Shown: piece by piece, positions 1 through 14,948 of the stretch
How the letters are laid out: each line of letters starts with the position of its first letter
Numbering within the stretch: position 1 is the stretch's first letter
DNA from: Saccharofermentans sp.
GTDB taxonomy: Bacteria > Bacillota_A > Clostridia > Saccharofermentanales > Saccharofermentanaceae
DNA length: 14,948 nucleotides
Direction: 5' to 3'
NCBI GenBank assembly: GCA_024695565.1
Contig: JAILHX010000002.1
Location: 1 to 14,948, forward strand
The notes under the pieces: generated by a model
Seen by the model: only the letters and a program-made list of their open reading frames with translations
The model's database searches: none
What the model was told of the DNA's origin: nothing
Translations under genes and position numbers: made by a program

Positions 1-1
1 G

Positions 2-145
2 CATGGTCTTTTTGAATATGTACCTGCAATGTGTCATCTTGATTATGTGATGAGCGAATTAGGCGGAGCCTCAAACTTTGTAAGAGAATACACGCTCGCA
101 TCAGGCGGACCGTACTGCGATTGCGGATATAAAAAGAAAGCATGA
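2..145 (+). CDS. C-terminal fragment, L-2-amino-thiazoline-4-carboxylic acid hydrolase-like protein (partial)
   Basis: An open frame runs in from the left edge and ends at TGA 143-145, giving 47 residues. The visible end, with CxLDYVMSE-like, FVREYTLASGG and YCDCGYKKKA segments, resembles the C-terminus of the ATC hydrolase family (PF14196), which typically ends in a threonine-rich strand, a glycine turn and a Cys-Asp-Phe/Cys motif. Family members hydrolyse L-2-amino-thiazoline-4-carboxylate in L-cysteine-producing Pseudomonas, but most clostridial homologues have no tested function. The start lies outside the window, so length and operon partners cannot be judged. The frame is certain; the family call rests on 47 residues only. 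Confidence 0.6.
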   Translation, partial: HGLFEYVPAMCHLDYVMSELGGASNFVREYTLASGGPYCDCGYKKKA

Positions 146-188
146 ACACCGGCTTTATCCCACGTTAGAAAATACCTCGTTTTTTTTA

Positions 189-217
189 TTGACATCCTTC
201 AAACAAATTGGTAATAT
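189..217 (+). promoter_or_regulatory. Sigma-A-type promoter of the DUF3793-flavodoxin operon
   Basis: A consensus -35 TTGACA (189-194) is followed by a 17-nt spacer and a -10 TAATAT (212-217). Transcription should begin near 224, inside the palindrome at 225-240. It lies 75 nt before the DUF3793 start and is preceded by a run of eight T (about 181-188). Confidence 0.8.
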
Positions 218-224
218 TCTTGCG

Positions 225-240
225 GTTAGTTATGACTAAC
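225..240 (+). promoter_or_regulatory. Palindromic operator GTTAGT-TATG-ACTAAC, candidate metal-repressor (DtxR-family) site
   Basis: A perfect 6-bp inverted repeat with a 4-nt centre covers the predicted transcription start, where a bound repressor would block initiation. Its half-sites resemble the TTAG/CTAA halves of DtxR/IdeR-type iron boxes. The downstream flavodoxin is a classic iron-limitation gene and a DtxR-family gene lies at 3530. The palindrome is seen directly; the identity of the binding protein is inferred. Confidence 0.65.
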
Positions 241-291
241 AAGAGTAAACAATAAATAACCGAAGGAAACTTCTAGAAAGGGTTTTAGCCT

Positions 292-843
292 ATGTTTGAC
301 GAGCTGGTGGTCAGAAACTGTGCACCTACTCTTGCAGGCATTAAGGTCGGCAGTCTGTTCAATTGTATCGGACAGGACTACGAAGAAACATTGAACTGTG
401 TCCGTTCCCTTAACAGAAGACTTCATCCTTATGGTGTCCGGTTGATCACCGGTTTTTCTGAAAACAAGCCTTCATTGGTCTATATGTACCGTCCCGAAAA
501 ACTCAGAAAGTATTTCATGGAAGATGATGTAAGAAGTCTTCTTTTTGAGTTCGGATATGAACCCGATGATGTTGACTGCTGTGTGAAGACACTTGTCGGA
601 AAACTCTTTGATTCTGAAGAATTTCCCCATGAGATAGGTCTGTTCCTTGGTTACCCGTCAGAAGATGTCAGAGGGTTTATCGAGAATCGCGCGTGCGGCT
701 CAAAATGCATCGGATGCTGGAAAGTTTACGGTGATGTTGCTCAGGCTCAAGAAAGGTTTGCTTTATATAACAAATGTACATCGATCTACTGCAGAAGATT
801 AAGAGAAGGCAGCAGCATCGAGAAATTAACTACGGCGTGCTGA
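292..843 (+). CDS. DUF3793 family protein
   Basis: This 183-residue soluble protein has no signal peptide or membrane segment. It matches the DUF3793 family (PF12672) in its hallmark order: an N-terminal CAPTLAGIKVGSLF stretch, a middle RP-E-L segment, HEIGLFLGYPSEDVRGFIEN around residues 113-132, a CIGCWKVYGD segment near 139-149, and a basic C-terminus SSIEKL. The function is unknown. DUF3793 genes in Clostridia often sit beside flavodoxin or iron-transport genes, as here: the flavodoxin start is 24 nt downstream. A purine-rich ribosome site (GAAAGGG) precedes ATG 292. The clustered cysteines (C135, C139 and C142 approximately, plus the C-terminal Cys) could bind metal or be redox-active, but that is speculation. 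Regulation by the upstream palindrome is likely. Confidence 0.85.
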   Translation: MFDELVVRNCAPTLAGIKVGSLFNCIGQDYEETLNCVRSLNRRLHPYGVRLITGFSENKPSLVYMYRPEKLRKYFMEDDVRSLLFEFGYEPDDVDCCVKTLVGKLFDSEEFPHEIGLFLGYPSEDVRGFIENRACGSKCIGCWKVYGDVAQAQERFALYNKCTSIYCRRLREGSSIEKLTTAC

Positions 844-867
844 CGCCAATAGAAAGGATCTATTTAT

Positions 868-1290
868 ATGAAAACAGCAGTTGTTTTTTGGAGTGGTACG
901 GGCAATACGGAGGCTATGGCAAATGCAGTAGCAGACGGCATGAAGGAAAAGGGCGCAGAGGTTTCTGTACTTGGTCCGGCAGATTTTACAGCAGATAAGA
1001 TCGCTGAATATGATGCAATCGCATTTGGTTGTCCTGCAATGGGTAATGAAGTTCTCGAAGAAAGTGAATTCGATCCCATGTTTACTGCAATCGAAGGTTC
1101 ACTTTCCGGTAAGAAGATCGCTCTCTTCGGCTCATTCGGATGGGGCGACGGCGAGTGGATGAGAAACTGGGAAGACCGCTGCAAGGCTGCAGGTGCAACA
1201 CTTGCATGTGACAGCGTAACCGTTAATGAGTCTCCTGACAGCGACGGTGTTGAGAACTGCAAGAAGTTAGGCGCCGCACTCGCTTCTTAA
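868..1290 (+). CDS. Flavodoxin (short-chain)
   Basis: This 140-residue protein is the usual length for clostridial short-chain flavodoxins. It begins with a beta-strand and the FMN phosphate-binding loop SGTGNTE (residues 9-15). Further on it has the CPAMGNEVLEE loop (near 55-65) and a LFGSFGWGDGEW segment (near 90-101), the two loops that normally frame the isoalloxazine ring. Flavodoxin carries single electrons in the cytoplasm and replaces ferredoxin when iron is short, for example with pyruvate:ferredoxin oxidoreductase or hydrogenase partners. A ribosome site (AAAGGA) precedes ATG 868. It is the second gene behind the palindrome-controlled promoter, 24 nt after DUF3793, so iron-responsive expression is the natural reading. 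gpmA follows after 39 nt. Confidence 0.95.
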   Translation: MKTAVVFWSGTGNTEAMANAVADGMKEKGAEVSVLGPADFTADKIAEYDAIAFGCPAMGNEVLEESEFDPMFTAIEGSLSGKKIALFGSFGWGDGEWMRNWEDRCKAAGATLACDSVTVNESPDSDGVENCKKLGAALAS

Positions 1291-1329
1291 ACTTACGGTC
1301 AGACAACTGATCAGAATCGGAGTATAAAA

Positions 1330-2085
1330 ATGAGTTACAGGATAGTACTTATAAGACACGGCGAATCCGAATGGAACAAGGCAAATCTTTTTACAGGCTG
1401 GACTGACGTAGATCTGTCCGATGCAGGAAGAGAAGAGGCTAAAAACGGAGGGCGCCTCCTTAAGGAAGAAGGAATATCTTTTGATGTTTGCTTCACATCA
1501 GTTCTTAAGAGAGCCATTCATACGGCAAATCTTGTCCTTGATGAGATGGATGAGATCTATATTCCCCAGATCAAGTCATGGAAGCTTAATGAGCGGCATT
1601 ATGGTGCTCTGCAGGGATTAAACAAATCTGAAACAGCAGAGAAATACGGCGAGGATCAGGTTAAGATCTGGAGACGTTCTTTTGACGTTAAACCTCCGGC
1701 ATTGGAAGAAAATGACCAAAGGAATCCTGCTCTGCAGCCTGCGTATAAATACGTTGATAAGTATTTCCTCCCGCTGACAGAGAGCCTCGAGACAACTATT
1801 GAGAGAGTTATTCCTTACTATCTTGAGACTATCGTTCCCGAGATCCGTGCCGGCAAGAGTGTACTTATCGCTGCTCACGGAAACTCTTTAAGAGCTCTCG
1901 TTAAGTATCTCGATAACATTTCAGATGAAGATATCTTAGGTCTCAATATTCCTACGGGTACACCTCTCGTATATGAGTTAGGTGATGACTTCAAGGCAAT
2001 CAGTCACAGATATCTCGGAGATCAGAGTGCTATCGAAGCAAAGATGAAAGCAGTTGCCAATCAGGGAGCCAAAAAGGTGAACTGA
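1330..2085 (+). CDS. gpmA: 2,3-bisphosphoglycerate-dependent phosphoglycerate mutase
   Basis: This glycolytic and gluconeogenic enzyme interconverts 3- and 2-phosphoglycerate in the cytoplasm. Its 251 residues fit the dPGM family (E. coli GpmA is 250). The RHGES motif puts the phosphohistidine at H10; the proton donor/acceptor E88 lies in the [11 protein letters not shown] segment and the second catalytic His at H183 in [10 protein letters not shown]. The [15 protein letters not shown] insert near 119-133 is typical of the dPGM lid. It starts 39 nt after flavodoxin, with GGAG at about 1318-1321 as ribosome site. I see no terminator or convincing promoter in that gap, so it probably shares the flavodoxin transcript. 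eno follows after another 39 nt, so two consecutive glycolytic steps are together. Confidence 0.97.
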
Positions 2086-3426
<1,341 letters not shown>

Positions 3427-3453
3427 TTTCTCCTCTGTTTATACATCATGTCT

Positions 3454-3492
3454 GAGGAGGGCTGCTGTAAGGATGATGCAGCAGCCCTTCTT
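3454..3492 (+). terminator. Intrinsic terminator after eno
   Basis: The perfect arms GGGCTGCTG (3459-3467) and CAGCAGCCC (3479-3487) extend outward with A-U, G-C and G-U pairs to about 14 bp around an 11-nt loop. A short pyrimidine tail (TTCTTCC) follows. It separates eno from the DtxR-family gene. Confidence 0.8.
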
Positions 3493-3529
3493 CCGTTAAT
3501 AAAGTTAAGGGGATATTTGGAGGTCTTAT

Positions 3530-3895
3530 ATGTGTCTTAGAGAGTCAGGGGAGATGTATCTTGAGACTGTTATGGTGCTCTCGGAAAGCGGAGCTCCTGT
3601 CCGCTCGTTGGATGTAGCTAATCACTTGGGTTTTTCAAAACCGAGTGTCAGCCGCGCCATGGGAAAACTTAAGTCAGAGAACTACATAGTTATTGATCCT
3701 CAAGGCTATATAACACTAACGGAAAAAGGGAATAGTATCGCAAAGAAAATCCTTGAGAAAAGATTCGTTCTGAAAGAATTGATCATGTCTCTGGGAGTAG
3801 ATGAGGAAACAGCTGCAAGCGATGCCTGCAGGATCGAACATGTATTGAGCGACGCAACTTTCGATGCATTGAAAGCTTATCAGCAAAAATCCTGA
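3530..3895 (+). CDS. DtxR-family metal-dependent transcriptional regulator
   Basis: This 121-residue cytoplasmic repressor has an N-terminal winged helix (residues about 8-65; recognition region FSKPSVSRAMGKL at 35-47; wing PQGYITLTEKG) and a C-terminal dimerisation/metal domain (about 70-121), with no SH3-like third domain. The DtxR-type primary metal ligands are visible: M9 in GEMYLE and C100, E103 and H104 in DACRIEHVLSD, the set typical of iron sensors. The ancillary-site residues of DtxR (H79, E83, H98) align with R78, K82 and A96 here, so that site appears lost. GGAGG at about 3520 gives a good ribosome site for ATG 3530. Likely target: the palindrome at 225-240. The hydrolase gene at 3942 starts only 46 nt downstream and may be co-transcribed. 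Confidence 0.9.
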   Translation: MCLRESGEMYLETVMVLSESGAPVRSLDVANHLGFSKPSVSRAMGKLKSENYIVIDPQGYITLTEKGNSIAKKILEKRFVLKELIMSLGVDEETAASDACRIEHVLSDATFDALKAYQQKS

Positions 3896-3909
3896 ATGTT
3901 TGTTATAGA

Positions 3910-3943
3910 ATAGAATCATTCGACATATGGAGGATGATTCTAT
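3910..3943 (+). promoter_or_regulatory. Perfect inverted repeat with the ribosome site of the next gene in its loop
   Basis: Arms 3910-3919 and 3934-3943 are perfectly complementary over 10 bp (ATAGAATCAT / ATGATTCTAT). The 14-nt loop holds GGAGG (3929-3933), and the right arm takes in the AT of start codon 3942. As RNA this would hold the start codon in a stem while exposing the ribosome site; as DNA it could be an operator. The structure is seen; its role is inferred. Confidence 0.5.
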
Positions 3944-5549
3944 GGCAATGATGGAAAGACCTGTTGTTAAGGATTGCAACGGCGGCAGATGCTGGGAGAA
4001 CACTTTTGATTCCTTCACGATGAAGGTCTTTGTTCCGGATAACGATCTGGACGGACAGACGAACAACTACGGGTTCAGAGCACCTTTGCTGCTGGTTCTC
4101 GAAGAAGAAAAACAGGATATTGAGAGTTCGGTAAGATTTGCGCATTCAACAGGTCTTGCTGATATAGCGGCCAAATACGATTCGAGCGTGCTGTTCATTT
4201 CTCCGACAGCAGAAGGCGGATGGGATGCAGTTGGCAGTTCACTTTATGCGGACGTTATTGCTGAGATAAAGCTTATCCAGGTCTATAAGGACGGAATCGT
4301 TGAGGACTTCAACTTCTTCACTCAGACATTTGAAGGTTATTATGCGCGAGGCGCCAAGTTCCGTACGGATATATACAGTTACGGCAAGTCAGCGGACTTC
4401 GTAGCAAAGAACCTTCTTAAGACTATAGAGGGTGAATATCTCTGGGGCACCGGCGAGATTACTCCTGCAATGTGTTCCATGGAGAATCTGAGCGTCGTTC
4501 CTGATGTACAGCGTAAAGATATTGCTGTCTTAAGTGTCGGCAACAGCGAAGAGATCAACGAGGCTTTCATCGGCTGTCAGAATATCCTTTTCAAAGATAA
4601 AGCAGACTATGTAAGCGACTACGATTCCTTTGTTAAGAAGTTCAAGATGTGGTGCGGAGTCATCGAGTTTGAACCTGACTTCGATGAGCTCGGAATGATC
4701 GAGGACGTAAGCTTCGTTACTGTAAAGACTTCGCCCGATAATGGTTTTCTGCCGGAAAAAGTGCCCGAGCACAAAGTCGGTTACTTCGCTTACTACAATA
4801 AAGGTCTTTTGGAGGGTGGCAGGGTCCCTCTCGTCATAGGATTTCACGGCGGCGGCGATTCTTCGATGTACCTGACCTTTGTTGCGCGCTGGTGGAATGT
4901 TGCCCGTAAATACAATTTCCTTTATGTAGGCATCGAAAACCATCAGTTCGTTACCGCGACAGAAGCAAGAGACATTATCGAGGTCTTAAAGACACGTTAT
5001 CCAATAGATTCCGAACGCATCTATGCAACAGGATTCTCGATGGGAAGCGGCAAGACATGGGATCTCTATCAGGAATACCCTGAGATCCTTGCAGGCATTA
5101 TGCCGTGCAGCGCACTGTTCCCGGTTTATACGACATTCTGGGGCAAGCCCGTTACCGACAGACTCAATAAGACGGTTCCTGTACCGGTTTTCTATTCAGG
5201 CGGATATAAGTCCCATCTCGGAGAACTTCCGTTCCAGAGCGAAGGCGGCGTAGAGCGTGTTCAGTATGTCGCTGAAGTCAATAAACTTAAGAGGTCATTT
5301 GCAGGTATTACTTTTGAGGACAAAGATGACTGGGCAGATCCCATTTGGGGCATTCCGGGTGACCGTACCGAAGAAGTTTACGATCCGACGAGGGACGCGA
5401 CATTGAATATCAATTATTATGACAGCGAGGACGGTGTCTGCAGAACTGCTTTTGCCAGTGTCAGCAATCAGATCCACGAGTGCAGGGAACACAGCATAGA
5501 GAATGCCTGGAAGTTCATATCGAAGTTCAAGAGGACCGTATCCTATTGA
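3942..5549 (+). CDS. Alpha/beta-hydrolase, PHB-depolymerase/feruloyl-esterase-like, possibly with a second inactive hydrolase half
   Basis: I choose ATG 3942 (535 residues) because GGAGG at 3929-3933 lies 8 nt before it; the in-frame ATG at 3927 overlaps the ribosome site itself. The C-terminal half (about 280-535) is an alpha/beta-hydrolase: strand plus oxyanion HGGGD (H302), nucleophile elbow GFSMG (S366), and a candidate catalytic His in QIHECREHS (H512 or H517) near the end. The pattern recalls the PHB depolymerase/LpqC esterases. No signal peptide is present, so it acts inside the cell. The first half (about 10-250) has a similar rhythm (LLLVLEEE strand, VLFISPTAEGGW, then IYSYGKSADFVAKNLLK) without a GxSxG elbow, suggesting a degenerate second hydrolase unit. 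The substrate is unknown. It follows the DtxR gene closely; its stop codon overlaps the next promoter. Confidence 0.8.
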   Translation: MAMMERPVVKDCNGGRCWENTFDSFTMKVFVPDNDLDGQTNNYGFRAPLLLVLEEEKQDIESSVRFAHSTGLADIAAKYDSSVLFISPTAEGGWDAVGSSLYADVIAEIKLIQVYKDGIVEDFNFFTQTFEGYYARGAKFRTDIYSYGKSADFVAKNLLKTIEGEYLWGTGEITPAMCSMENLSVVPDVQRKDIAVLSVGNSEEINEAFIGCQNILFKDKADYVSDYDSFVKKFKMWCGVIEFEPDFDELGMIEDVSFVTVKTSPDNGFLPEKVPEHKVGYFAYYNKGLLEGGRVPLVIGFHGGGDSSMYLTFVARWWNVARKYNFLYVGIENHQFVTATEARDIIEVLKTRYPIDSERIYATGFSMGSGKTWDLYQEYPEILAGIMPCSALFPVYTTFWGKPVTDRLNKTVPVPVFYSGGYKSHLGELPFQSEGGVERVQYVAEVNKLKRSFAGITFEDKDDWADPIWGIPGDRTEEVYDPTRDATLNINYYDSEDGVCRTAFASVSNQIHECREHSIENAWKFISKFKRTVSY

Positions 5550-5574
5550 CCGTGTGGGTAAATGTTGTTAAAAT
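5546..5574 (+). promoter_or_regulatory. Promoter of the cysteine leader and serine acetyltransferase
   Basis: TTGACC (5546-5551), a 17-nt spacer and TAAAAT (5569-5574) form a good sigma-A promoter. The -35 overlaps the stop codon of the preceding hydrolase gene. Transcription should start near 5581, about 25 nt before the leader peptide ATG. Confidence 0.7.
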
Positions 5575-5606
5575 TCCAACATCTTCTGATACTTAAGGGG
5601 AAGCAC

Positions 5607-5678
5607 ATGTCTTTTAACAGATTTACATGTTGTTGCTGTTGTACGTCCAAGGGTAAATTCTTATGGGCGCATGATTGA
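5607..5678 (+). CDS. Leader peptide with five consecutive cysteine codons
   Basis: This 23-codon open frame starts at ATG 5607 behind AAGGGGA (5595-5601) and stops at TGA 5676-5678. It encodes MSFNRFT, then five cysteines in a row (codons TGT TGT TGC TGT TGT at 5628-5642), then a short tail ending in WAHD. It lies between a promoter and an intrinsic terminator, directly upstream of serine acetyltransferase, so a ribosome stalled for cysteinyl-tRNA would sense cysteine supply. The peptide itself is probably dispensable; its translation is the signal. The sequence just after the Cys codons (5651-5665) doubles as one arm of the antiterminator. Too short for routine gene callers. Confidence 0.85.
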   Translation: MSFNRFTCCCCCTSKGKFLWAHD

Positions 5679-5720
5679 TGCAGCTTGAGCCCCAGATAAA
5701 AACTTACGTAAGATTTGCCC
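5651..5720 (+). promoter_or_regulatory. Antiterminator of the cysteine attenuator
   Basis: Arm 5651-5665 (GGGTAAATTCTTATG) pairs with 5707-5720 (CGTAAGATTTGCCC): 14 pairs, two of them G-U, with only U5659 bulged. The distal arm takes the GCCC (5717-5720) needed for the base of the terminator, so the two structures exclude each other. The proximal arm begins 9 nt after the last Cys codon, so a ribosome stalled early in the Cys run leaves it free, while one that reaches the stop codon covers part of it. A smaller hairpin (GGGCGCAT 5665-5672 with ATGC 5678-5681 and GCCC 5689-5692) may also form. The pairing was worked out by hand from sequence. Confidence 0.75.
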
Positions 5721-5755
5721 GGAAGCTATATAATATAATAGTTTTCGGGCTTTTT
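5717..5755 (+). terminator. Intrinsic terminator of the cysteine attenuator
   Basis: GCCCGGAAGC (5717-5726) pairs with GTTTTCGGGC (5741-5750) over 10 bp (two G-U) and three further A-U pairs can form inside. TTTTT follows at 5751-5755. It ends 27 nt before the serine acetyltransferase start codon, with no gene between, so its role is regulated premature termination. Confidence 0.85.
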
Positions 5756-5782
5756 ATTTAGCTTTGCAGAAAGAGGTTATAT

Positions 5783-6742
5783 ATGACTAATAATGTTAAT
5801 CATGAAGAAATCGATAATATCGTAAAGCTTATTTTCGAAGACTACGAAGGCGGCAAGAATATCGATGCCGTTAAGCTGTTTAGTAATCCCGATAAAGATG
5901 AAGTCAGGGAGCTTGTCGAGAATTTCTTCAGGATCATATATCCCGGATATTTCCGTGACCGCACATACAAGATCTATAACCCGAAGAACAGCTTCGCCGT
6001 AACGATCGAAGATGTTTTCTATCACCTTAAAAAGCAGATTTACAGAGCTCTCGACTATTCGCAGAGCGACGATAAGGTGCCTGATGAGAAGCGAGAGGAA
6101 GAGAGCTACCGCATAACCACCGAATTCTTCAAGAAGATCCCTGTTATCAGAGAATATATTGAGACAGACCTTCTGGCTACGCTAGACGGTGACCCTGCGG
6201 CAGCTAACTTCGATGAGGTCATTCTTGCTTACCCGGGCCTCATGGCAATAACCGTTTACCGTATTGCCCATGAGCTCTATCTTCTCAAAGTACCGATCCT
6301 GCCGCGTCTCATGACCGAATATGCGCACTCCCAGACGGGAATCGATATTCACCCCGGCGCTACGATCGGCAAATACTTCTTCATCGATCACGGCACAGGT
6401 ATCGTTGTAGGTGAGACATCCATCATCGGAAGCAACGTCAAGATCTATCAGGGTGTTACCATCGGTGCTCTCTCCACAAGAGGCGGCCAGAAGCTCTCAG
6501 GCAAGAAGCGTCACCCGACTATCTGCGACAATGTAACCATTTATGCAAATGCTTCGATCCTCGGCGGCAATACCGTTATCGGTGAGAACACGGTAATCGG
6601 CGGCAACTCATTTATCACTTCTTCTGTTGAGCCGAATTCCAAGGTCAGCATGACAAATCTCGCGAAGGAGAATAAGTCTGACGGAAAGCACGTTACGAGT
6701 GAAGAAGTCAAGCAGAGCGAAGAGTGGTACTACATCATCTGA
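5783..6742 (+). CDS. cysE: Serine O-acetyltransferase (EpsC/CysE type)
   Basis: The enzyme makes O-acetylserine from serine and acetyl-CoA, the committed step of cysteine synthesis, in the cytoplasm. It has 319 residues: an all-helical N-terminal region (about 1-165) and a left-handed beta-helix of hexapeptide repeats (about 175-290; IDIHPGATIG, ASILGG, NTVIGENTVIGG). D188 in GIDIHPG and H203 in IDHGTG have the 15-residue spacing of the catalytic pair D143/H158 of E. coli CysE; H244 in KKRHP matches its H193, with a longer loop STRGGQKLSGKKRHP as in EpsC-type proteins. AGAGG lies before ATG 5783. Expression should depend on the cysteine leader upstream. No cysK is adjacent in the window. The C-terminal tail lacks an obvious CysK-binding terminal Ile pattern beyond ending in YYII. 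Confidence 0.93.
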   Translation: MTNNVNHEEIDNIVKLIFEDYEGGKNIDAVKLFSNPDKDEVRELVENFFRIIYPGYFRDRTYKIYNPKNSFAVTIEDVFYHLKKQIYRALDYSQSDDKVPDEKREEESYRITTEFFKKIPVIREYIETDLLATLDGDPAAANFDEVILAYPGLMAITVYRIAHELYLLKVPILPRLMTEYAHSQTGIDIHPGATIGKYFFIDHGTGIVVGETSIIGSNVKIYQGVTIGALSTRGGQKLSGKKRHPTICDNVTIYANASILGGNTVIGENTVIGGNSFITSSVEPNSKVSMTNLAKENKSDGKHVTSEEVKQSEEWYYII

Positions 6743-6850
6743 TGCTTTTGTCATCAGTTTGACCCGGAATTCACACAGCTTTCACTCATCCTTCATCCGC
6801 TATTCCCGAAAATTAACATCCGCCGGAATGTTATACTTCAGACGGCAGAA

Positions 6851-6902
6851 GGGAAGCGCTGTTCATATCAGGTTCAAGCGCTGGAGAAGGATAGCGCTTC
6901 CC
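6851..6902 (+). repeat. Long hairpin in the leader of the YcaQ-like gene
   Basis: GGGAAGCGCT (6851-6860) and AGCGCTTCCC (6893-6902) are perfect inverted repeats; the stem can grow inward by four pairs (two G-U). A third copy of AAGCGCT lies in the loop (about 6875-6881), allowing an alternative pairing. No T-run follows, so it is a poor terminator of the acetyltransferase gene. The rest of 6743-6946 shows no convincing gene. The role is unknown. Confidence 0.5.
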
Positions 6903-6961
6903 GGAGGGCCGCTAAATCCCCCGTTGTTATTAAAGATAAATACACTTTGCAGGTAACAGTA

Positions 6962-8155
6962 ATGGAGACCATTACCAGACTTTGCGCCAGACAGTTCATC
7001 CTGGCAAAACAAGGCTTGATAGGATCATACCGCTTCATAGGAAAAGGCGGCGCCTGCGACTATGTCCGACAGGCAGGATGCATACAGTACGACCCTGTTG
7101 ATGTCTGCGGCAAGAATGCCGAACTTACGCTTCAGTCCCGCGTTAAGGGTTTTCGTAAATCAATGCTGGCAGATCTCCTCTATAAAGACCGCCTGCTGGT
7201 TGATTATGCCGATAAGGAACTCTCCATCTGGCCTATCGAAGACTGGCCTTATTTCTCATCTTACAGGGACAGAAGCCGCGAGCTTGGCAAGACATTTAGG
7301 GGCATCGCCGAATTAAGAAAGCAGGCCGTCTCATATATTGAGGAGAACGGTCCTGTCACAAGTGATTCATTGCCGATCGAAGGTGAGATCTATTGGCATT
7401 CTTCTATGCATTGGAGCGGCAATTGGGATAAGAAATCCCAGGCGGCCAGATCGATCCTCGAACAGTTATACACTGACGGCGAACTTATTATCCATCACAA
7501 GAAGGAAAGCAGGAAATACTACGATCTGGCCTGCAGACATATCCCGCAGGATATTATGGAAGCTAAAAATCCCTGTAAGGATGAAGACAGTTTTGCTGCC
7601 TGGCGTCTGCTTAGAAGAATAGGTGCTGTAGGACTTCTGTGGGATAAGAACAGCACGGCTCTGCTCGGTCTTTACATAAATGCCGAAGAACGCAAAAAAC
7701 TGTTATCCAGGCTGACCTTAGAAGGGAAGATATGTCCCGTCATGGTTGAAGGAATCAAACAGCCATTCTATTACCGTTCTGAAGACCGGGAACTTATGAA
7801 TTCGGTTATAGAAGGCACAGTTGATCTTAAGCCAAGGATGTCATTTGTTGCACCCCTGGATCCTCTTATGTGGGATAAGGCACTGGTTAACGCTTTGTGG
7901 GATTATCAGTACACATGGGAGATATATACTCCTGCCAATAAACGCAAATACGGTTATTACACTCTGCCGGTTCTGTTCGGTGACAGGTTCGTAGGACGCA
8001 TTGAGACGGCAATCGATAAGCAGAACGGATTGCTCATCGTAAAGAACATCTGGTGGGAAGAAGGCGTCCGTCAGACAAAGAAACTGGAAAAAGCACTGGA
8101 CAGAACACTTAAAGAGTTTGCCCGGTTTAATGATTGCAGCGGCTATAAAGCTTAA
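6962..8155 (+). CDS. Winged-helix DNA glycosylase-like protein of the YcaQ/AlkX (HTH_42) family
   Basis: The 397-residue protein matches the crosslink-repair DNA glycosylase family YcaQ (PF06224). After an N-terminal helix (RLCARQFILAKQGL) comes the catalytic-type Q-x-D motif as Q42-Y43-D44 in GCIQYDPVDVCGKNAELTLQSRV, then DYADKELSIWPIEDWPYF, a winged-helix zone with IYWHSSMHWSGNWDKKSQAARSILEQLYTDGEL (near 145-180), and the APLDPLMWDKALV segment (near 305-317) also found in the family. E. coli YcaQ opens DNA interstrand crosslinks; here that role is inferred. I prefer ATG 6962 (AGG 8 nt upstream) to the in-frame TTG 6947, which has no ribosome site. It is monocistronic: its leader holds a long hairpin and its 3' end converges on ssrA. 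Confidence 0.85.
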   Translation: METITRLCARQFILAKQGLIGSYRFIGKGGACDYVRQAGCIQYDPVDVCGKNAELTLQSRVKGFRKSMLADLLYKDRLLVDYADKELSIWPIEDWPYFSSYRDRSRELGKTFRGIAELRKQAVSYIEENGPVTSDSLPIEGEIYWHSSMHWSGNWDKKSQAARSILEQLYTDGELIIHHKKESRKYYDLACRHIPQDIMEAKNPCKDEDSFAAWRLLRRIGAVGLLWDKNSTALLGLYINAEERKKLLSRLTLEGKICPVMVEGIKQPFYYRSEDRELMNSVIEGTVDLKPRMSFVAPLDPLMWDKALVNALWDYQYTWEIYTPANKRKYGYYTLPVLFGDRFVGRIETAIDKQNGLLIVKNIWWEEGVRQTKKLEKALDRTLKEFARFNDCSGYKA

Positions 8156-8187
8156 GGCTGATTCACAATTTTCAATGCTTAAAATTC

Positions 8188-8275
8188 ATATCATATATGA
8201 TATATAAATCAGACACCGCCGGAGTCTGATTTATATAGGATATATTCTATAAAAACAGGAATATATTCTGTAACA
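8188..8275. repeat. AT-rich palindromes and hairpin between the YcaQ-like gene and ssrA
   Basis: Three structures stack here: a 16-nt perfect palindrome ATATCATATATGATAT (8188-8203), a perfect 14-bp hairpin (arms 8201-8214 and 8224-8237, loop ACCGCCGGA), and a direct repeat of ATATATTCT (about 8240-8248 and 8263-8271). The hairpin is followed by mixed A/T sequence, not a T-run, so it is at best a weak or backup terminator for the plus-strand gene. I see no small gene. Confidence 0.55.
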
Positions 8276-8308
8276 AGTTTCGCGAGAGGCTAACCCTGGC
8301 TAAGAATG

Positions 8309-8374
8309 AATAAAACCTTCTGCAACTGGTTTCGCGAAGCGAACTGTTCGTGCGTTGCAGAAGGTTCTATTTTT
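8309..8374. terminator. Bidirectional terminator shared by the YcaQ-like gene and ssrA
   Basis: Perfect 13-bp arms AACCTTCTGCAAC (8314-8326) and GTTGCAGAAGGTT (8354-8366) enclose a loop that contains its own small hairpin (TTCGC/GCGAA). On the plus strand CTATTTTT follows; on the minus strand the arm runs into TTTTATTC. It lies 8 nt beyond the tmRNA 3' end, the normal place for the ssrA terminator. Confidence 0.85.
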
Positions 8375-8381
8375 GAAGTTT

Positions 8382-8760
8382 TGGTGGAGATGAGGAGAAT
8401 CGAACTCCTGTCCGAAACCTCTTCCTCCGGGACAATCTCCGGGTGCAGTCAGTATTTGAATTATTCCAATTCCCGCGTCATCTGCTGACAGATTGCGGTT
8501 CCTGTAGCTTCATAAGATTTAAGTCGCTAGCCGGCGCAAAGCTTAACCGGTAGGACTGCCTGCTTAACCTCTCTCAGACGAGGTCTTCGGTGTACGTACA
8601 CTCCCGCGAGAAGATAGGCGGAAGGACGGTAGCCTTAGGCTGCTACGAGCTCTGTCTTGTCTGCAATTACTTGCAATTCCCCGTTTTTTAAGGAGGCACA
8701 ACGAGGATCCTCCACCCGCTTTCCCGACCTCAGAAGCCCCGTCGAAACCGGTACATCCCC
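8382..8760 (-). ncRNA. ssrA: tmRNA (transfer-messenger RNA, one-piece)
   Basis: On the minus strand the RNA begins GGGGATGTACCGGTTTCGAC at 8760 and ends with a T-arm (GTTCGATTC) and CATCTCCACCA at 8382. The first seven bases GGGGATG pair with CATCTCC (one G-U), and CCA is encoded. Length is 379 nt, normal for a one-piece tmRNA. The mRNA-like part begins at GCA (8664-8662) and encodes the tag ADKTELVAA followed by TAA (8637-8635), a stop inside a GC-rich stem as usual. tmRNA with SmpB rescues stalled ribosomes and marks the product for proteolysis. smpB is not in the window. The promoter lies at 8824-8851 and the terminator at 8309-8374. Confidence 0.96.
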
Positions 8761-8772
8761 AAGTCTGAAAAG

Positions 8773-8810
8773 AATTGCTCCGGTCACGACAAGAAGTGAC
8801 CGAAGCAATT
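8773..8810 (-). terminator. Hairpin between the zinc-ribbon gene and ssrA, terminator-like on the minus strand
   Basis: Arms 8773-8787 and 8796-8810 form a 15-bp stem in minus-strand RNA (one G-U; on the plus strand that pair would be C-A) with an 8-nt loop, followed by CTTTTC. It would end the transcript of the upstream minus-strand genes, but it also lies between the likely ssrA promoter and the tmRNA 5' end. Confidence 0.6.
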
Positions 8811-8823
8811 TTGCTTACGCGTG

Positions 8824-8851
8824 ATTATACAATCTTATCTATGAATTTCAA
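8824..8851 (-). promoter_or_regulatory. Probable ssrA promoter
   Basis: On the minus strand TTGAAA (8851-8846), a 16-nt spacer and a perfect TATAAT (8829-8824) are present. The -35 overlaps the stop codon of the zinc-ribbon gene. Transcription would start near 8817, leaving about 55 nt of 5' leader to be removed by RNase P before the mature tmRNA end. Confidence 0.65.
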
Positions 8852-9423
8852 GTCTCGTCGTCAAAATTCAGATCCTTGGAAACGTCATAGGGTTCGAAGT
8901 CCTGACTGATCACTGCCTGTGCATCCTGGATCTCCTGCTCGTCTGCTGCGTCATCAGGAACATAGTCCTCAGGCTCAGCAGTCTTTGGTGTGTAATCGAT
9001 TTTGTAAGGATCAATGCCGTCGTACTTCTTATAAGGATTATCAAGGATCTCGGTGCCGCAATAGTAGCACTTGGAAGTGAAGGGACGGTTCTCCATAGCC
9101 TGGAGACCCTTGCCGCAGTTAGGGCAGGCGGTCAGGTTCTTATAGTCGGTTCTCTTCTCGAGAAGAACGGCTTCGTTAAGAGCCTTGTCGAGTTCTTCGT
9201 TGGTCATGCCTTTTTCCTTGAGCAGAAGCCATACGGCATGAAGCAGGTAGGTCTGCTTCTCGAGCTGCTTTTTCATCTCTTCGACTTCTTTTGCAGCCTG
9301 AAACTCGTTCTTGATCTGGTGATCGTTTCCGGGATTCTTGACGGAGTTGATGAGCTCGTCTGCTTCGTTAACGTTCTTGAGTTTTGCCATGTCCTTGAAT
9401 GACATAGAATCTAAACCTGACAT
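8848..9423 (-). CDS. Zinc-ribbon protein of unknown function
   Basis: I do not recognise a named family for this 191-residue soluble protein. It has a charged helical region with likely coiled coil (about 33-60, EFQAAKEVEEMKKQLEKQ), a helical stretch LHAVWLLLKEKGMTNEELDKAL (61-82), and a zinc ribbon with C100-x2-C103 and C119-x2-C122 (CPNCG and CYYCG). The acidic, unstructured C-terminus (about 145-191) is rich in Asp and Glu. AGGAGG lies 7 nt before its ATG on the minus strand. It follows the amidase gene in the same direction after 79 nt; a weak TTGTTA-18-TATATT promoter may lie in that gap. A regulatory or scaffolding role is possible, but nothing in the sequence fixes it. Confidence 0.8.
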   Translation of the reverse strand: MSGLDSMSFKDMAKLKNVNEADELINSVKNPGNDHQIKNEFQAAKEVEEMKKQLEKQTYLLHAVWLLLKEKGMTNEELDKALNEAVLLEKRTDYKNLTACPNCGKGLQAMENRPFTSKCYYCGTEILDNPYKKYDGIDPYKIDYTPKTAEPEDYVPDDAADEQEIQDAQAVISQDFEPYDVSKDLNFDDET

Positions 9424-9502
9424 ATCTGACCTCCTGTGCTAATGAATATAGATACCCTGAATCTACTATAACAAACTTTTCGATTTTTAATGCGGTAATC
9501 CT

Positions 9503-10552
9503 TTAGGAGCCGAGAAACTCTGCTACACCCACGGCAGCTTTGTAAGCTGTATCTTCAAGTCCCAAGAGCGCATCGTCATCGCTGTTTGAGAGATAACCTA
9601 CGACGAGCTGATAAGACTTTATCGAATCAGCGTGATTAAGTCCCGTGTACATGTTGGACTGCACGGATCCCAAAGATGCCGAACCGATCTCTGCTGCGAC
9701 TGAGTCTGCGAGAGCCTGACCGTCTGCTGCAGCAGAAGAAGCATAAGTTCCGGTCGAAGGAACATATACCTTGACTCCGCTGATGCTCTCGTCGGGAGCG
9801 CTGTCTGCGTGGATCCTGATGAAGTAATCAGCATTGTTGTCGATCGCAATCTGTGCCCTGTCTATGTTGGAGAGGTTAACCTCGTTTGATTCACGGGTGA
9901 GGATAACGGTAGCACCGCAACCTTCAAGATATTCCTTCATTACCAGAGCATATTCCAATGTGAGTTCGTATTCTTTGACGCCGCTGTTTATGCCGACTGC
10001 GCCGGGAGTAGCTTTTTCCTTGTCGGCATCAGTTCCGCCGCCGACCTCTTCATGTTCGTAATCGTAGTCCTGCTGGTGTCCCGGATCGATGACGATAACG
10101 ATTCCGGTGAGGTCAGGGTGGTCAGCAGGGACCGGAACAGGGGAGGGCGTAGGTGATGCCGGAACGGGAGTGGGAGTATCTGTTGGGAAGCTGTTCGGAA
10201 CAGGTCCCATGATCCCGCTCTCAGTTGTATCAGTTGCAAATGTCTCATCTGCAGGCATGCCTAACATCTGATTGAATTTTTTGTCGATGCTGTCTTTATT
10301 AAATGCGTAGATAAAATAGAAAATACCGACGATAAACAGTGCTATCAGGATTCCGAGTCCGATGCTCTGGACGGAAGACTGCTTCTTCTGTTTTACCTTA
10401 GGTTCGGTATAGTACTTCTTCGTGAAGTCAGCGATGAATGCTTCACGCTTGGATTGGGGCATCTCGCGGAGACGCTTATAGAGGAGCTTCCTCTTGTCTT
10501 CGGGAAGTTTATTGAGTATCTGCTTAAACTTTTCGAGATCAGCTTCAGCCAT
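9503..10552 (-). CDS. Membrane-anchored N-acetylmuramoyl-L-alanine amidase (amidase_3) lacking the usual catalytic Glu
   Basis: I choose the ATG at 10552 (349 residues) because GGAGG lies 5 nt upstream; an in-frame ATG at 10582 has no ribosome site. Order: charged helical cytoplasmic N-terminus (1-60), one membrane segment (62-84), a short extracellular stalk, a Pro/Thr/Ser linker (about 117-147), then amidase_3 (150-349). Zinc ligands are visible: H159 in VIDPGHQQ, E194 in SGVKEYELTLEYA, H248 in FIRIHADSA. The motif that normally holds the catalytic Glu (E-x-G-[FY]-[LI]-[ST]-N) reads VVGYLSN, with Val317 in place of Glu. A 15-residue acidic insert (DYDYEHEEVGGGTDADKEK, about 162-180) lies near the active site. 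Active amidases cut the muramoyl-alanine bond of peptidoglycan; this one may be non-catalytic or use another residue. Confidence 0.88.
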   Translation of the reverse strand: MAEADLEKFKQILNKLPEDKRKLLYKRLREMPQSKREAFIADFTKKYYTEPKVKQKKQSSVQSIGLGILIALFIVGIFYFIYAFNKDSIDKKFNQMLGMPADETFATDTTESGIMGPVPNSFPTDTPTPVPASPTPSPVPVPADHPDLTGIVIVIDPGHQQDYDYEHEEVGGGTDADKEKATPGAVGINSGVKEYELTLEYALVMKEYLEGCGATVILTRESNEVNLSNIDRAQIAIDNNADYFIRIHADSAPDESISGVKVYVPSTGTYASSAAADGQALADSVAAEIGSASLGSVQSNMYTGLNHADSIKSYQLVVGYLSNSDDDALLGLEDTAYKAAVGVAEFLGS

Positions 10553-10635
10553 AAAGTCCTCCATTAAAGAAGATAATAACATTCTTTATCTTTAGAACAA
10601 ATTATTATTGGAAACCCGCTTAAAATGGATTATTC

Positions 10636-10663
10636 ACGGGTTAGTGGGTATTGGGGCAAACAC
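10636..10663 (+). repeat. G-rich motif resembling the repeat at the right end of the window
   Basis: The stretch CGGGTTAGTGGGTATTGGGG followed by CAAACACG resembles 14878-14907 (CGGGATTAATGGGCGCTTGGGG then TTGCACG): CGGG-TTA-TGGG-TTGGGG-ACG is shared. It lies in the divergent region between the amidase and PadR genes. It could be a dispersed intergenic repeat or a chance match; nothing else was found in 10583-10697. Confidence 0.35.
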
Positions 10664-10697
10664 GGATACAGCAATCAGAATTATTTAAGATTTAGTA

Positions 10698-10726
10698 TTG
10701 AACAATAAACAGTAGTGTGCTATAAA
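10698..10726 (+). promoter_or_regulatory. Promoter of the PadR-DUF1700 operon
   Basis: TTGAAC (10698-10703), a 17-nt spacer and TATAAA (10721-10726) give a start near 10733. This rules out translation from the ATG at 10726 and leaves a leader of about 70 nt that contains a small GC hairpin (GGCGC 10743-10747 with GCGCC 10761-10765). Confidence 0.75.
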
Positions 10727-10803
10727 TGATAGTGACGGCGGAGGCGCTGAGGAATAGGGGGCGCCTTCCGGCCCGTCAATTCGGAATGAAAGGGGAATTG
10801 CCA

Positions 10804-11139
10804 ATGAACAGCCAGATCAAGAAGGGCATTCTCGATTTGTGCGTGCTGGCCTTACTTGAAAAGGGTGACAGTTATGGCTACGACCTCGCGGGTAGCCTTG
10901 CACGCAAAGTCGAAGTAGCAGACGGCACAGTTTACCCGATACTGCGTAAGCTCGCTTCTGAAGGTGTGGTATCGACATACCTGCAAGAATCTCAGAACGG
11001 GCCGCCGCGCAAGTACTACCATCTCACCGACGCCGGGCACAAGAAGCTTAACAGCGAACGAGAAGAATGGTTAAAGTTCTGCGGTGAAGTAAACGAAATA
11101 CTTGAGCGAGGAGAAACTGGAGGAAAAGCCGATGAATAA
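10804..11139 (+). CDS. PadR-family transcriptional regulator
   Basis: The 111-residue winged-helix regulator shows the PadR signature throughout: KKGILDLCVLALLEKGDSYGYDL (about 6-28), VADGTVYPILRKLASEGVVSTYLQES (near 38-63), then GPPRKYYHLTDAGHKKL. The C-terminal helix is short, as in PadR subfamily 2. ATG 10804 is preceded by AAAGGGGAA; the in-frame ATG at 10726 overlaps the -10 and cannot be used. PadR proteins usually repress neighbouring genes and often their own, released by ligands or envelope stress. Its end overlaps the DUF1700 start by 8 nt, the standard arrangement for PadR-DUF1700 pairs, where the membrane partner probably modulates or is controlled by the regulator. Confidence 0.93.
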   Translation: MNSQIKKGILDLCVLALLEKGDSYGYDLAGSLARKVEVADGTVYPILRKLASEGVVSTYLQESQNGPPRKYYHLTDAGHKKLNSEREEWLKFCGEVNEILERGETGGKADE

Positions 11140-11704
11140 GACTGAATATCTTAAGAGGCTCAGCGATGAATTAGGGCACATGCCCTACGGTGATGTAAAA
11201 GACATCATTCAATCCATTGAAGAGCATTTTACAGAAGGTTTGGGCGAGGGCAGAAGCGAAGAAGAAATTGCTGAGAGCCTTGGAGATCCCAAGGAACTTG
11301 CCGCTGAATTCAAGGATGGTGCTAAGTTCAAGCAGATCATGAAGAAGCGCAAGAAGTTGTTAGATAACTATACAGGACCCGACGGCAGAGGAAGAATCTT
11401 CGTAGTTGTATTCAATCTCTTTGTTGGTATTGCTATGTGGATCGTTCTTCTGGCAGCGATAATTGCAGCATTCATGTTCCTTGCTGCAGACTGTGGAATC
11501 GCAGGACTCATCATTGCTTCGCTCATCATGGGCAAGCTCACAGAGTTCCTTGTACCGTTCATTTTCCTGGTACTCACTCTTATTTGTATTGCGGTATTCC
11601 TCATCGCGATCCTGATCCTTGGAGTAAAGTACTACATCCGCGGTCTCAAGGCATATATCAAGTGGAACAAGCATGTATGGAACTACGGCTTGGGGGAGGA
11701 CTAA
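11132..11704 (+). CDS. DUF1700 (HAAS-domain) membrane protein
   Basis: This 190-residue protein begins with the HAAS-type helical domain (MNKTEYLKRLSDEL, then DVKDIIQSIEEHFTEGLGEGRSEEEIAESLGDPKELAAEF, residues 1-60), followed by a basic linker and three or so membrane helices (about 88-112, 118-138, 140-166), then a basic tail. I choose ATG 11132 because GGAGG lies 8 nt upstream; translation from TTG 11102 would have no ribosome site. It overlaps the PadR gene by 8 nt, so the two are translationally coupled. DUF1700 proteins are inner-membrane proteins of unknown activity that are paired with PadR regulators across Bacillota. The next gene starts 1 nt after the stop codon. Confidence 0.9.
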   Translation: MNKTEYLKRLSDELGHMPYGDVKDIIQSIEEHFTEGLGEGRSEEEIAESLGDPKELAAEFKDGAKFKQIMKKRKKLLDNYTGPDGRGRIFVVVFNLFVGIAMWIVLLAAIIAAFMFLAADCGIAGLIIASLIMGKLTEFLVPFIFLVLTLICIAVFLIAILILGVKYYIRGLKAYIKWNKHVWNYGLGED

Positions 11705-11705
11705 T

Positions 11706-11885
11706 ATGAGTAAAGGCGATGTTAAGTTACTGATTACCGGTGCGGTATCACTTTTCCTGGCTTGCTTCCTCGGAATCATCACGATTGCACTGTTTGTCAT
11801 CGGACTCGGCGGCAAAGCTTTGGAATACGACTGGAAGGGAGCTTTCAGTCAGGTTACGGAACAGGCGGAAAGTCTTAGCGACTGA
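11706..11885 (+). CDS. Small membrane protein of the PadR-DUF1700 operon
   Basis: A 59-residue protein with one long hydrophobic stretch (about residues 8-33, LLITGAVSLFLACFLGIITIALFVIG) and a soluble C-terminus ending in EQAESLSD. A very strong ribosome site GGGGGAGG lies inside the end of the DUF1700 gene, and ATG 11706 follows that gene's stop by 1 nt. No family recognised; the layout suggests a partner of the DUF1700 protein. An upstream in-frame extension to 11673 exists but would lie inside DUF1700 without a ribosome site. Confidence 0.8.
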   Translation: MSKGDVKLLITGAVSLFLACFLGIITIALFVIGLGGKALEYDWKGAFSQVTEQAESLSD

Positions 11886-11906
11886 TCTTAGGGATAAGGA
11901 TAGAAA

Positions 11907-11945
11907 GGGGGCTGTCTTGCATAGAGGACAGCCTCTACTATTTTT
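11907..11945 (+). terminator. Intrinsic terminator after the PadR operon
   Basis: GGGGGCTGTC (11907-11916) pairs with GACAGCCTCT (11927-11936) with two G-U pairs and a 10-nt loop; TACTATTTTT follows. It separates the PadR operon from the small peptide-permease pair. Confidence 0.8.
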
Positions 11946-11957
11946 ACCGTTATTAAC

Positions 11958-11985
11958 TGCCGGTATGTTATTCTGAATACCGGCA
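11958..11985 (+). promoter_or_regulatory. Perfect inverted repeat just before the ribosome site of the small membrane peptide
   Basis: TGCCGGTAT (11958-11966) and ATACCGGCA (11977-11985) form a 9-bp stem with a 10-nt loop, ending directly against AAGGAG (11985-11990). It may be an operator or an RNA hairpin near the start. No clear promoter was identified in 11946-11999. Confidence 0.5.
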
Positions 11986-11999
11986 AGGAGAATATAACT

Positions 12000-12155
12000 A
12001 TGGAACAGGATAAAGAACTTGAATCGAGGATCGAAGAAGTCCTCAAGGCGGAGAAGGAGAACAAGATCCCCCGCATGACAAAACGCGATTACATCATCGC
12101 AGCTGTGATTACGGCAATATCCCTTCTGGGGATCATCGGAGGTTTCTTCCTATGA
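12000..12155 (+). CDS. Small membrane peptide coupled to the permease-acyltransferase gene
   Basis: A 51-codon gene missed by length cut-offs. ATG 12000 has AAGGAG 9 nt upstream. The product has a charged helical N-terminus (EQDKELESRIEEVLKAEKE, residues 2-20) and one membrane helix near the end (about 31-51, YIIAAVITAISLLGIIGGFF). Its stop TGA overlaps the next start as ATGA (12152-12155), the classic sign of translational coupling. Small hydrophobic partners are known beside some transporters (for example YhdT beside PanF), so a helper subunit of the following permease is a reasonable inference. Confidence 0.8.
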   Translation: MEQDKELESRIEEVLKAEKENKIPRMTKRDYIIAAVITAISLLGIIGGFFL

Positions 12156-14803: not shown

Positions 14804-14810
14804 AACAAAC

Positions 14811-14846
14811 GGGCTGTCTCTTAGTTGAGGCAGCCCTTCTAAGTTT
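14811..14846 (+). terminator. Intrinsic terminator after the fusion gene
   Basis: GGGCTGTCTC (14811-14820) pairs fully with GAGGCAGCCC (14827-14836; one G-U) around a 6-nt loop, and TTCTAAGTTTT follows. It starts 7 nt after the stop codon. Confidence 0.85.
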
Positions 14847-14877
14847 TCTTCTTTCTGGGCGTGTTAATTGCCGGTCC

Positions 14878-14948
14878 CGGGATTAATGGGCGCTTGGGGT
14901 TGCACGTTGAATTGCCCCAACTTTTAATAATCCCGCTTCTTGGGGCAA
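14878..14948. repeat. G-rich imperfect palindromic repeat at the right edge
   Basis: CGGGATTA (14878-14885) pairs with TAATCCCG (about 14928-14935), TTGGGG (14894-14899) with CCCCAA (14915-14920), and TTGCCCCAA (14912-14920) is also the exact inverse of TTGGGGCAA (14940-14948), where the window stops. The same core appears in the amidase-PadR gap. It may continue past the edge; no gene is seen in 14847-14948. Confidence 0.5.

Follow-up and report, generated by a model that had tools for sequence, protein, structure and literature searches.

The leader and alternative helices ahead of serine acetyltransferase

The stretch analysed here, 14,948 nucleotides (nt) of a Saccharofermentans sp. contig (JAILHX010000002.1, positions 1 to 14,948, referred to at its full length as the window), contains a gene for serine O-acetyltransferase (SAT, cysE/epsC) that is preceded by a promoter, a short gene rich in Cys codons and a set of RNA helices. 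The original prediction, made from the letters of the DNA, had read this arrangement as a cysteine-sensing transcription attenuator. The parts it had named are all there: the promoter TTGACC-17-TAAAAT, a 23-codon leader with a good ribosome site and five consecutive Cys codons, an antiterminator of 14 pairs with one bulge (5651-5665 with 5707-5720), and a terminator at 5717-5755 that shares GCCC 5717-5720 with the antiterminator, so that the two cannot coexist. Two further elements had gone unmentioned, a 1:2 hairpin and an inverted-repeat element over the -35 box. The features are as follows:

5541..5559, + strand: putative Rrf2/CymR-type operator TCCTATTGACCGTGTGGGT, which lies across the -35 box and is degenerate in the window
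5546..5574, + strand: sigma-70-type promoter TTGACC-17-TAAAAT (sequence and 11-leader alignment)
5597..5600, + strand: Shine-Dalgarno GGGG of the leader gene (sequence)
5607..5678, + strand: leader peptide gene MSFNRFTCCCCCTSKGKFLWAHD with its stop, 23 codons, ATG at 5607 (sequence; homologous leaders in 10 relatives)
5645..5668, + strand: 1:2 (pause/protector) hairpin GUCCA-UGGGC with inner GGG-CUU (folds, and an 8-sequence count with 95.2% of cells paired; excludes the antiterminator)
5651..5720, + strand: antiterminator, GGGTAAATTCTTATG 5651-5665 with CGTAAGATTTGCCC 5707-5720 (14 pairs, one bulged U)
5717..5755, + strand: intrinsic terminator, hairpin 5717-5750 (13 pairs) followed by TTTTT (sequence, folds)
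5783..6742, + strand: serine O-acetyltransferase, cysE/epsC (profile matches)

The two promoter hexamers, TTGACC at 5546-5551 and TAAAAT at 5569-5574, are 17 nt apart and match the consensus at 10 of 12 positions; a TG precedes the second hexamer, and the TTGAC of the -35 box is unchanged across the 11 aligned SAT leaders. The predicted leader gene with its ribosome site sits between promoter and terminator, and its Cys codons at 5628-5642 (TGT TGT TGC TGT TGT) form a run of codons for the end product ahead of SAT. The 1:2 hairpin pairs 5645-5649 with 5664-5668 and, inside, 5651-5653 with 5660-5662; in this way it competes with the 5' arm of the antiterminator. The antiterminator and terminator helices overlap exactly at 5717-5720, which makes them mutually exclusive. 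SAT starts 32 nt further on from the terminator and has its own ribosome site past the hairpin. The naming of this gene in the original prediction agrees with the match to NF041874 (EpsC serine acetyltransferase), at 155.3 bits above the cut-off of 150; the match to TIGR01172 (cysE; E 6.8e-49) scores 166 bits, below its cut-off of 210.65. At the SAT promoter both the -35 hexamer and the operator contain the stop codon (TGA 5547-5549) of an upstream open reading frame (ORF, 3927-5549), and any transcript reading through from there would therefore pass the attenuator too.

The significance from folding alone is modest for the window leader. The 185-nt leader folds with a z of -2.3 (2 of 200 shuffles equally good) and the 120 nt downstream of the Cys run with a z of -2.6 (3 of 200). 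Between 5400 and 6000 there is one terminator-like site against 0.4 expected, and there are two promoter-like sites against 1.7 expected, so that the window promoter alone is not significant. The decisive evidence for the predicted switch is comparative: the same layout is found in 10 relatives.

Taken with these relatives, the sequence argues strongly for ribosome-mediated cysteine attenuation, as had been proposed: the parts stand in the needed order, the helices exclude each other and the gene behind them belongs to the cysteine pathway. We consider it very probable that the element is a trp-type transcription attenuator that senses charged tRNA-Cys, located behind a promoter with an Rrf2/CymR-type operator and belonging to a family-wide regulon. 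The leader would be translated. When Cys-tRNA is scarce, the ribosome would halt in the Cys run, cover the 5' side of the 1:2 hairpin and free 5651-5665; the antiterminator (2:3) could then form as 5707-5720 emerges, and SAT would be transcribed. When cysteine is ample, the ribosome would pass over 5651-5665 to the stop codon, the terminator (3:4) would form and transcription would end.

A ligand-binding riboswitch or a T-box, with an accidental small ORF, would be the more familiar solution, as T-boxes are common for Bacillota cysteine genes according to the part of PMC2940859 that concerns them. No Rfam 15 family, T-box RF00230 included, was found at the window leader at E values up to 1, and none reached its gathering score in 19 related loci; RF00230 gave no match anywhere in the window at that threshold. 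We regard this explanation as barely credible here. T-boxes do exist in the family, with 87 matches in 17 of the 17 genomes searched. Behind the 25 of these matches that were read, the ORFs look by eye like leuA, trpE and pheS, with one unnamed regulator-like ORF.

Serine acetyltransferase leaders in related genomes

A SAT-protein scan of genome contigs gave 80 loci (numbered with L below, genomes with G), whose upstream 600 bases were checked for Cys leaders; a leader with at least three consecutive Cys codons was present at two of them (L001 and L016, the same places as L115 and L135). The family of the L001 genome, a Saccharofermentans metagenome-assembled genome, comprises 115 genomes, of which 114 gave a SAT-protein match, many of them partial. 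The best 30 SAT loci of this family were read and labelled by eye. A Cys leader stands ahead of SAT in 10 of the 30, a promoter followed directly by a terminator, with no leader, in 5, and neither arrangement in 15, among which L137 and L139 have the promoter element alone. At L118, L120, L121, L136 and L138 the SAT promoter is followed at a short distance by a terminator hairpin, without leader or antiterminator.

Three types of peptide were found among the 10 leaders, namely MTFENNLLCCCCCLSQG and its kin (7), MSFIRFSCCCCCPSKGEFLWAPDACN, which is the type of the window (1), and MFSKKHT(I/F)CCC(I/F)C... (2). The peptide before the Cys run differs widely, and what stays is the run itself and the following xS(K/Q/E)G, which overlaps the helices. 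Five Cys residues are present in 8 of the 10 relatives' leaders (9 of 11 with the window), and four of the five positions are kept in L134 and L135. Inside the run the Cys codons vary synonymously, the third and fourth swapping TGC and TGT between leader types. In the 11-leader alignment every gap that separates start codon and Cys run has a length divisible by three; single-base gaps past the run shift the frame between the types, so that the distance from the beginning of the run to the stop ranges from 27 to 57 nt.

For each of the 11 SAT leaders (the window and 10 relatives), the RNA downstream of the Cys run was folded under three conditions. When the transcript ends before the 3' arm of the terminator, the antiterminator is in the best fold of all 11, and when the RNA is masked to about 12 nt past the leader stop, the terminator forms in all 11. 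Pairs were counted on an alignment of 8 SAT leaders; L112, L113 and L115 are outside this alignment (A4) and outside the covariance model, MAFFT having shifted their GGG by one column, and they were kept in the folding test and in the other alignments (A1, A2). For the 1:2 hairpin together with the terminator, 95.1% of the cells are paired against 25-59% when the arms are slid, and 4 cells are changed on both sides, a number reached by 4 of 500 shuffles. In one shared column A changes to G: the terminator partner changes from U to C, and the antiterminator partner, a U, pairs with both.

A covariance model built from the SAT leaders matched 10 of the 115 family genomes, always immediately upstream of SAT and with at least 98 bits. 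Across the order (188 genomes, stricter filters) it gave no further match at E 0.01, and in a sample of the class (391 genomes) only G001 matched. The match at L212 (E 0.009) is without the leader layout and was taken as chance. Whole-genome pattern scans for four or five Cys codons were set aside, as chance matches dominate them and the control counts are similar for four codons. A single event as the origin of the SAT leader was likewise rejected: the SAT tree (32 rows), on which the labels were placed by eye, needs 4 label changes, 3 of them forced by well-supported branches, and it does not tell gain from loss.

The ribosome site of the leader gene can itself be paired. GGGGAAGC at 5597-5604 is complementary to GCTT 5683-5686 and CCCC 5690-5693, and pairing of the ribosome site with the RNA around the end of the leader may keep ribosomes from loading repeatedly. 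In E. coli trpL a comparable helix limits the leader to early ribosomes. The duplex has p values of 0.005 or less in 4 of the 11 SAT leaders, and L115 is of opposite sign. Among the leaders of the wider regulon described below, where the test covered 87 of 93 (all except L227 and leaders whose region was too short), it reaches p 0.05 or less in 48 of 87, with a median z of -2.0. Its letters differ by locus (GGAGGCGTGAAA in L330, AGACATGACATG in L266, GGAGGCACA in L240).

Operator-linked leaders before other sulfur genes

The covariance model also matched two places ahead of genes other than SAT, which both have the promoter element of the window. At L211 (E 1.6e-5) the leader MKKPINTIYKKINDNMCCCCRMC precedes a family-3 solute-binding protein, and at L213 (E 0.034) MFKNMCCCRM... 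precedes an ORF like the trans-sulfuration enzyme of L231, with a cysK-like ORF next and iscS- and iscU-like ORFs in front (L213 was named by eye).

The operator has the common family form ACCTATTGACATAGTAGGT, an inverted repeat ACCTA-N9-TAGGT, which we take to resemble the Rrf2/CymR/IscR-type operators. The pattern of its right half, TTGACHDRGTAGGT, occurs in 83 of the 115 family genomes; it matches at some 174 places, compared with about 32 for the reversed control, so that roughly one place in five may be chance. Match totals were summed by hand; about 150 of the roughly 174 places were listed and 130 were read (30 given as loci, 100 fetched), leaving out places at loci already read and the last ones listed, and 11 of the 130 have no clear downstream ORF. 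The left half ACCTAT, absent from the search pattern, is present in 96 of the 130 sites. An Rrf2 gene (PF02082) scored above the cut-off in 19 of the 20 genomes searched, the exception being G055, which has operator and leaders (L294, L295). A divergent Rrf2-like gene adjoins the element in 4 of 32 Rrf2 matches (L404, L413, L414, L416; the L404 protein was checked), and among 30 Rrf2 loci the strict operator pattern occurs in L404 only. An Rrf2 protein of the CymR/IscR kind may bind the operator, and such a regulator acting on the same promoter would add a second layer of control.

Counted strictly, that is with CC or MCRM in the peptide, 93 of the 130 operator sites were scored as being followed by a Cys-rich leader. 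The 93 include a spurious one, L227, whose leader overlaps cysK. The downstream gene clusters were named from one or few members each. Enzymes of Cys/Met metabolism that depend on pyridoxal phosphate account for 51 sites, 49 of them with a Cys-bearing leader (47 with CC), and the NlpA/MetQ lipoprotein for 37 sites, all with a leader (35 CC, 2 MCRM). A leader precedes the LysR regulator in 3 of 3, the GCS2 glutamate-cysteine ligase in 2 of 4, the ECF S component in 2 of 3 and SAT in 1 of 3 operator sites (L261, with another leader type). A CC leader is found at none of the 6 iscS/nifS sites, and the remaining gene groups are small or single. The original prediction had proposed a search for similar leaders in Clostridia; there are 10 ahead of SAT in one family, and more before other sulfur genes.

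One could suppose that control by cysteine lies entirely with the Rrf2/CymR-like operator, and that leader and hairpins amount to a small relic ORF and a terminator that is weak and constitutive. The operator pattern of the 83 genomes does stand before genes lacking a Cys-run leader as well (iscS/nifS 6 of 6, metE 1 of 1), and the SAT loci of close relatives hold promoter and terminator without leader. Against this supposition, each of the 11 SAT leaders combines the Cys run with both alternative helices, and the combination recurs, with other letters, before other sulfur genes; we find it quite improbable.

The scan found a terminator-like site in 77 of the 93 regulon leaders (a count that includes L314, whose hairpin lies inside its own leader). 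A terminator score of at least 18 is reached by 71 of the 93, against 1.1% of 930 shuffles, 30% of which have a site of any score. The best duplex of leader and terminator covers the 5' arm of the terminator in 76 of the 77; its median energy is -24.0 kcal/mol against -15.5 for shuffled leaders, and in 56 of the 77 it is matched by at most 1 of 60 shuffles. In 30 leaders of the NlpA type 99.0% of the antiterminator cells are paired (0 of 500 shuffles as high), 4 pairs are changed on both sides (9 of 500), there are 16 such cells (0 of 500), and no shuffle of 500 attains the covariation score. Judged from sequence, the predicted switch of the window is one member of a clade-specific, family-wide cysteine-attenuation regulon.

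Leaders with the peptide RCGRMCCSC, ahead of O-acetylhomoserine sulfhydrylase, have no believable terminator (L232, L237, L248, L255, L257, L306, L314, L324, L329). Some 20 nt lie between their ends and the gene, and they may work at the level of translation. These members of the same regulon lend something to the idea that SAT is controlled by attenuation of translation or by Rho, as has been proposed for the Cys leaders of actinobacteria, instead of by intrinsic termination. In the window, the terminator is of the intrinsic kind and has a U tract, and both SAT and its ribosome site lie beyond the hairpin, which makes this idea very improbable there.

Several results weigh against the attenuator that we prefer, or against parts of it. 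A leader is missing at 20 of the 30 SAT loci, including some whose SATs are 89-91% identical and that keep promoter and terminator. Loss of the Cys run or of either stem from the leaders of close relatives had been named as a finding that would refute the switch, and these loci bear that out in part; where a Cys leader is present, the other elements are present too. With all RNA past the Cys run left free, the terminator wins in 8 of the 11 SAT leaders and the antiterminator in 3 (L111, L114, L116), which means that the outcome must depend on the order of folding. Within the 8-leader alignment, 84.8% of the antiterminator cells are paired (20-47% when slid), a value that 132 of 500 shuffles reach and that is thus no better than shuffling gives; a single pair is changed on both sides, which 70 of 500 shuffles match, and the covariation score is equalled by 25 of 500. 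Of what the suggested alignment over relatives was expected to reveal, conservation of the Cys run and covariation above shuffles in the 1:2 hairpin and terminator were found, and covariation of the antiterminator is weak; it is therefore the agreement among divergent leaders, more than covariation, that supports the structure of the SAT leaders. The ribosome-site duplex is not significant in the window (p 0.145) and lies above 0.05 in 7 of the 11 SAT leaders. In the wider regulon, 16 of the 93 leaders are without a terminator by the scan, and 21 of the 77 antiterminators are not clearly better than shuffles.

Most regulon leaders carry a core that is fixed at the level of codons. In Cys-Arg-(Met/Lys) the Cys codon is TGT in 71 of 71 cases and the Arg codon CGA in 71 of 71, and where an Arg-Cys closes the peptide just ahead of the stop it is written CGA TGT in 56 of 56; at other positions of the leaders the Arg codons are variable. 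In stop-to-stop frames of at least 250 codons from 11 family sequences, no Arg codon is rarer than CGA, at 2.2 per thousand. Sampled family genes use TGC over TGT two to one, and the leaders reverse this, with 324 TGT against 47 TGC. Class II leaders with the fixed TGT-CGA-ATG core and CGA-TGT before the stop are exemplified by L222, L245 and L330. Of the 115 family genomes, 67 contain the 15-mer ATGTGTTGTCGAATG; none of 73 other genomes of the order does (one match for the control pattern), and in the class sample it occurs in 7 of 391 genomes, six family members and G300. All 10 genomes with a SAT leader also hold this 15-mer core of the other leader class. G300 (L374 / L415) is the sole non-family genome of the class sample with an MCCRM core, and it has, by eye, the leader-terminator layout; transfer or contamination may account for this.

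Cysteine codons alone would not require a fixed TGT-CGA core. We considered that most leaders might be sensors with two inputs, the Cys codons and the fixed UGU-CGA-AUG core, often with a second CGA-UGU before the stop, which would respond to Cys-tRNA together with a slow or modified Arg-tRNA or to arrest of the nascent chain, the poly-Cys type of the window being the simpler form; this is an unlikely reading, offered as a speculation. The core as an exposed element was rejected, as the openness of TGTCGAATG stays below the average of the leader (0.284 against 0.436) and exceeds it in 13 of 70 leaders; a constant pairing partner of TGTCGAATG was not seen in 9 folds.

Comparison with known systems of cysteine control

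It is useful to compare the window with the attenuators of the trp, his and ilv type, in which a translated leader with a run of end-product codons is followed by 1:2, 2:3 and 3:4 helices and an intrinsic terminator. The window has such a run of codons, the alternative helices and an intrinsic terminator, and it differs in that the amino acid is cysteine, the gene is serine acetyltransferase, the host belongs to Bacillota and an Rrf2-type element lies on the promoter. The predicted switch is of a known kind; unusual are the clade-wide cysteine regulon, the joined Rrf2-type element and the fixed TGT-CGA core. To the known systems it would add a cysteine attenuator of full trp-type anatomy before serine acetyltransferase, and a codon pair whose fixation is unexplained.

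Leaders with Cys codons have been described in other groups. The uORFC-8-2 motif before cysS of Rhodobacterales has tandem Cys codons and a terminator, and ribosome-mediated attenuation in response to cysteine is predicted for it (PMC8632094). In the part of that paper describing the motif, its 145 examples come only from alpha-proteobacteria and only from before cysS, with the two Cys codons usually at 14-15. By this description it is set apart from the leaders reported here, which come from a clostridial family and stand before SAT and a number of further sulfur genes. Short ORFs that contain Cys runs precede sulfur genes in Mycobacterium, P. acnes and B. longum, without conserved terminator hairpins as far as the relevant passage of PMC1262725 goes, and mycobacterial cysteine genes are placed under translation attenuation in a statement made for M. 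smegmatis (PMC13236596, in the portion consulted). The window resembles these actinobacterial leaders, so described, in having a short Cys-run ORF before a sulfur gene, but it has a terminator hairpin.

The original prediction held that T-boxes or CymR are more typical for the cysteine genes of Bacillota, and this fits what is described for C. perfringens cysK-cysE and for B. subtilis in the sections of PMC2940859 on cysteine control. The Cys T-boxes of C. perfringens precede cysK-cysE, cysP1, cysP2 and ubiG-mccBA (same sections). They share with the proposed regulon the signal, similar targets (cysE, MccB, transport) and premature termination; unlike them, with tRNA sensed directly by the RNA and no leader peptide in that account, the SAT of the window has no T-box. 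Control of cysteine genes in Bacillota is described there by T-boxes, CymR and CysR, with the remark that other clostridial mechanisms may exist. Among the papers listed in searches of the open-licence PMC literature, which largely leaves out subscription journals, no cysteine leader-peptide attenuator in Bacillota was found, and the claim of novelty is therefore confined to those searches and to Rfam 15. The regulon is a complete candidate for such a further mechanism, in a family with many rumen members, and its placement before many sulfur genes makes the mechanism, the relation to T-boxes and the layering with an Rrf2 repressor testable.

Two other features of the window may be recorded. 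A tmRNA lies at 8382-8760 on the minus strand (140 bits), and a single ORF at 12152-14803 fuses a cytosine/purine permease domain (PF02133) with an acyltransferase domain (PF01553), a pairing that seemed unusual.

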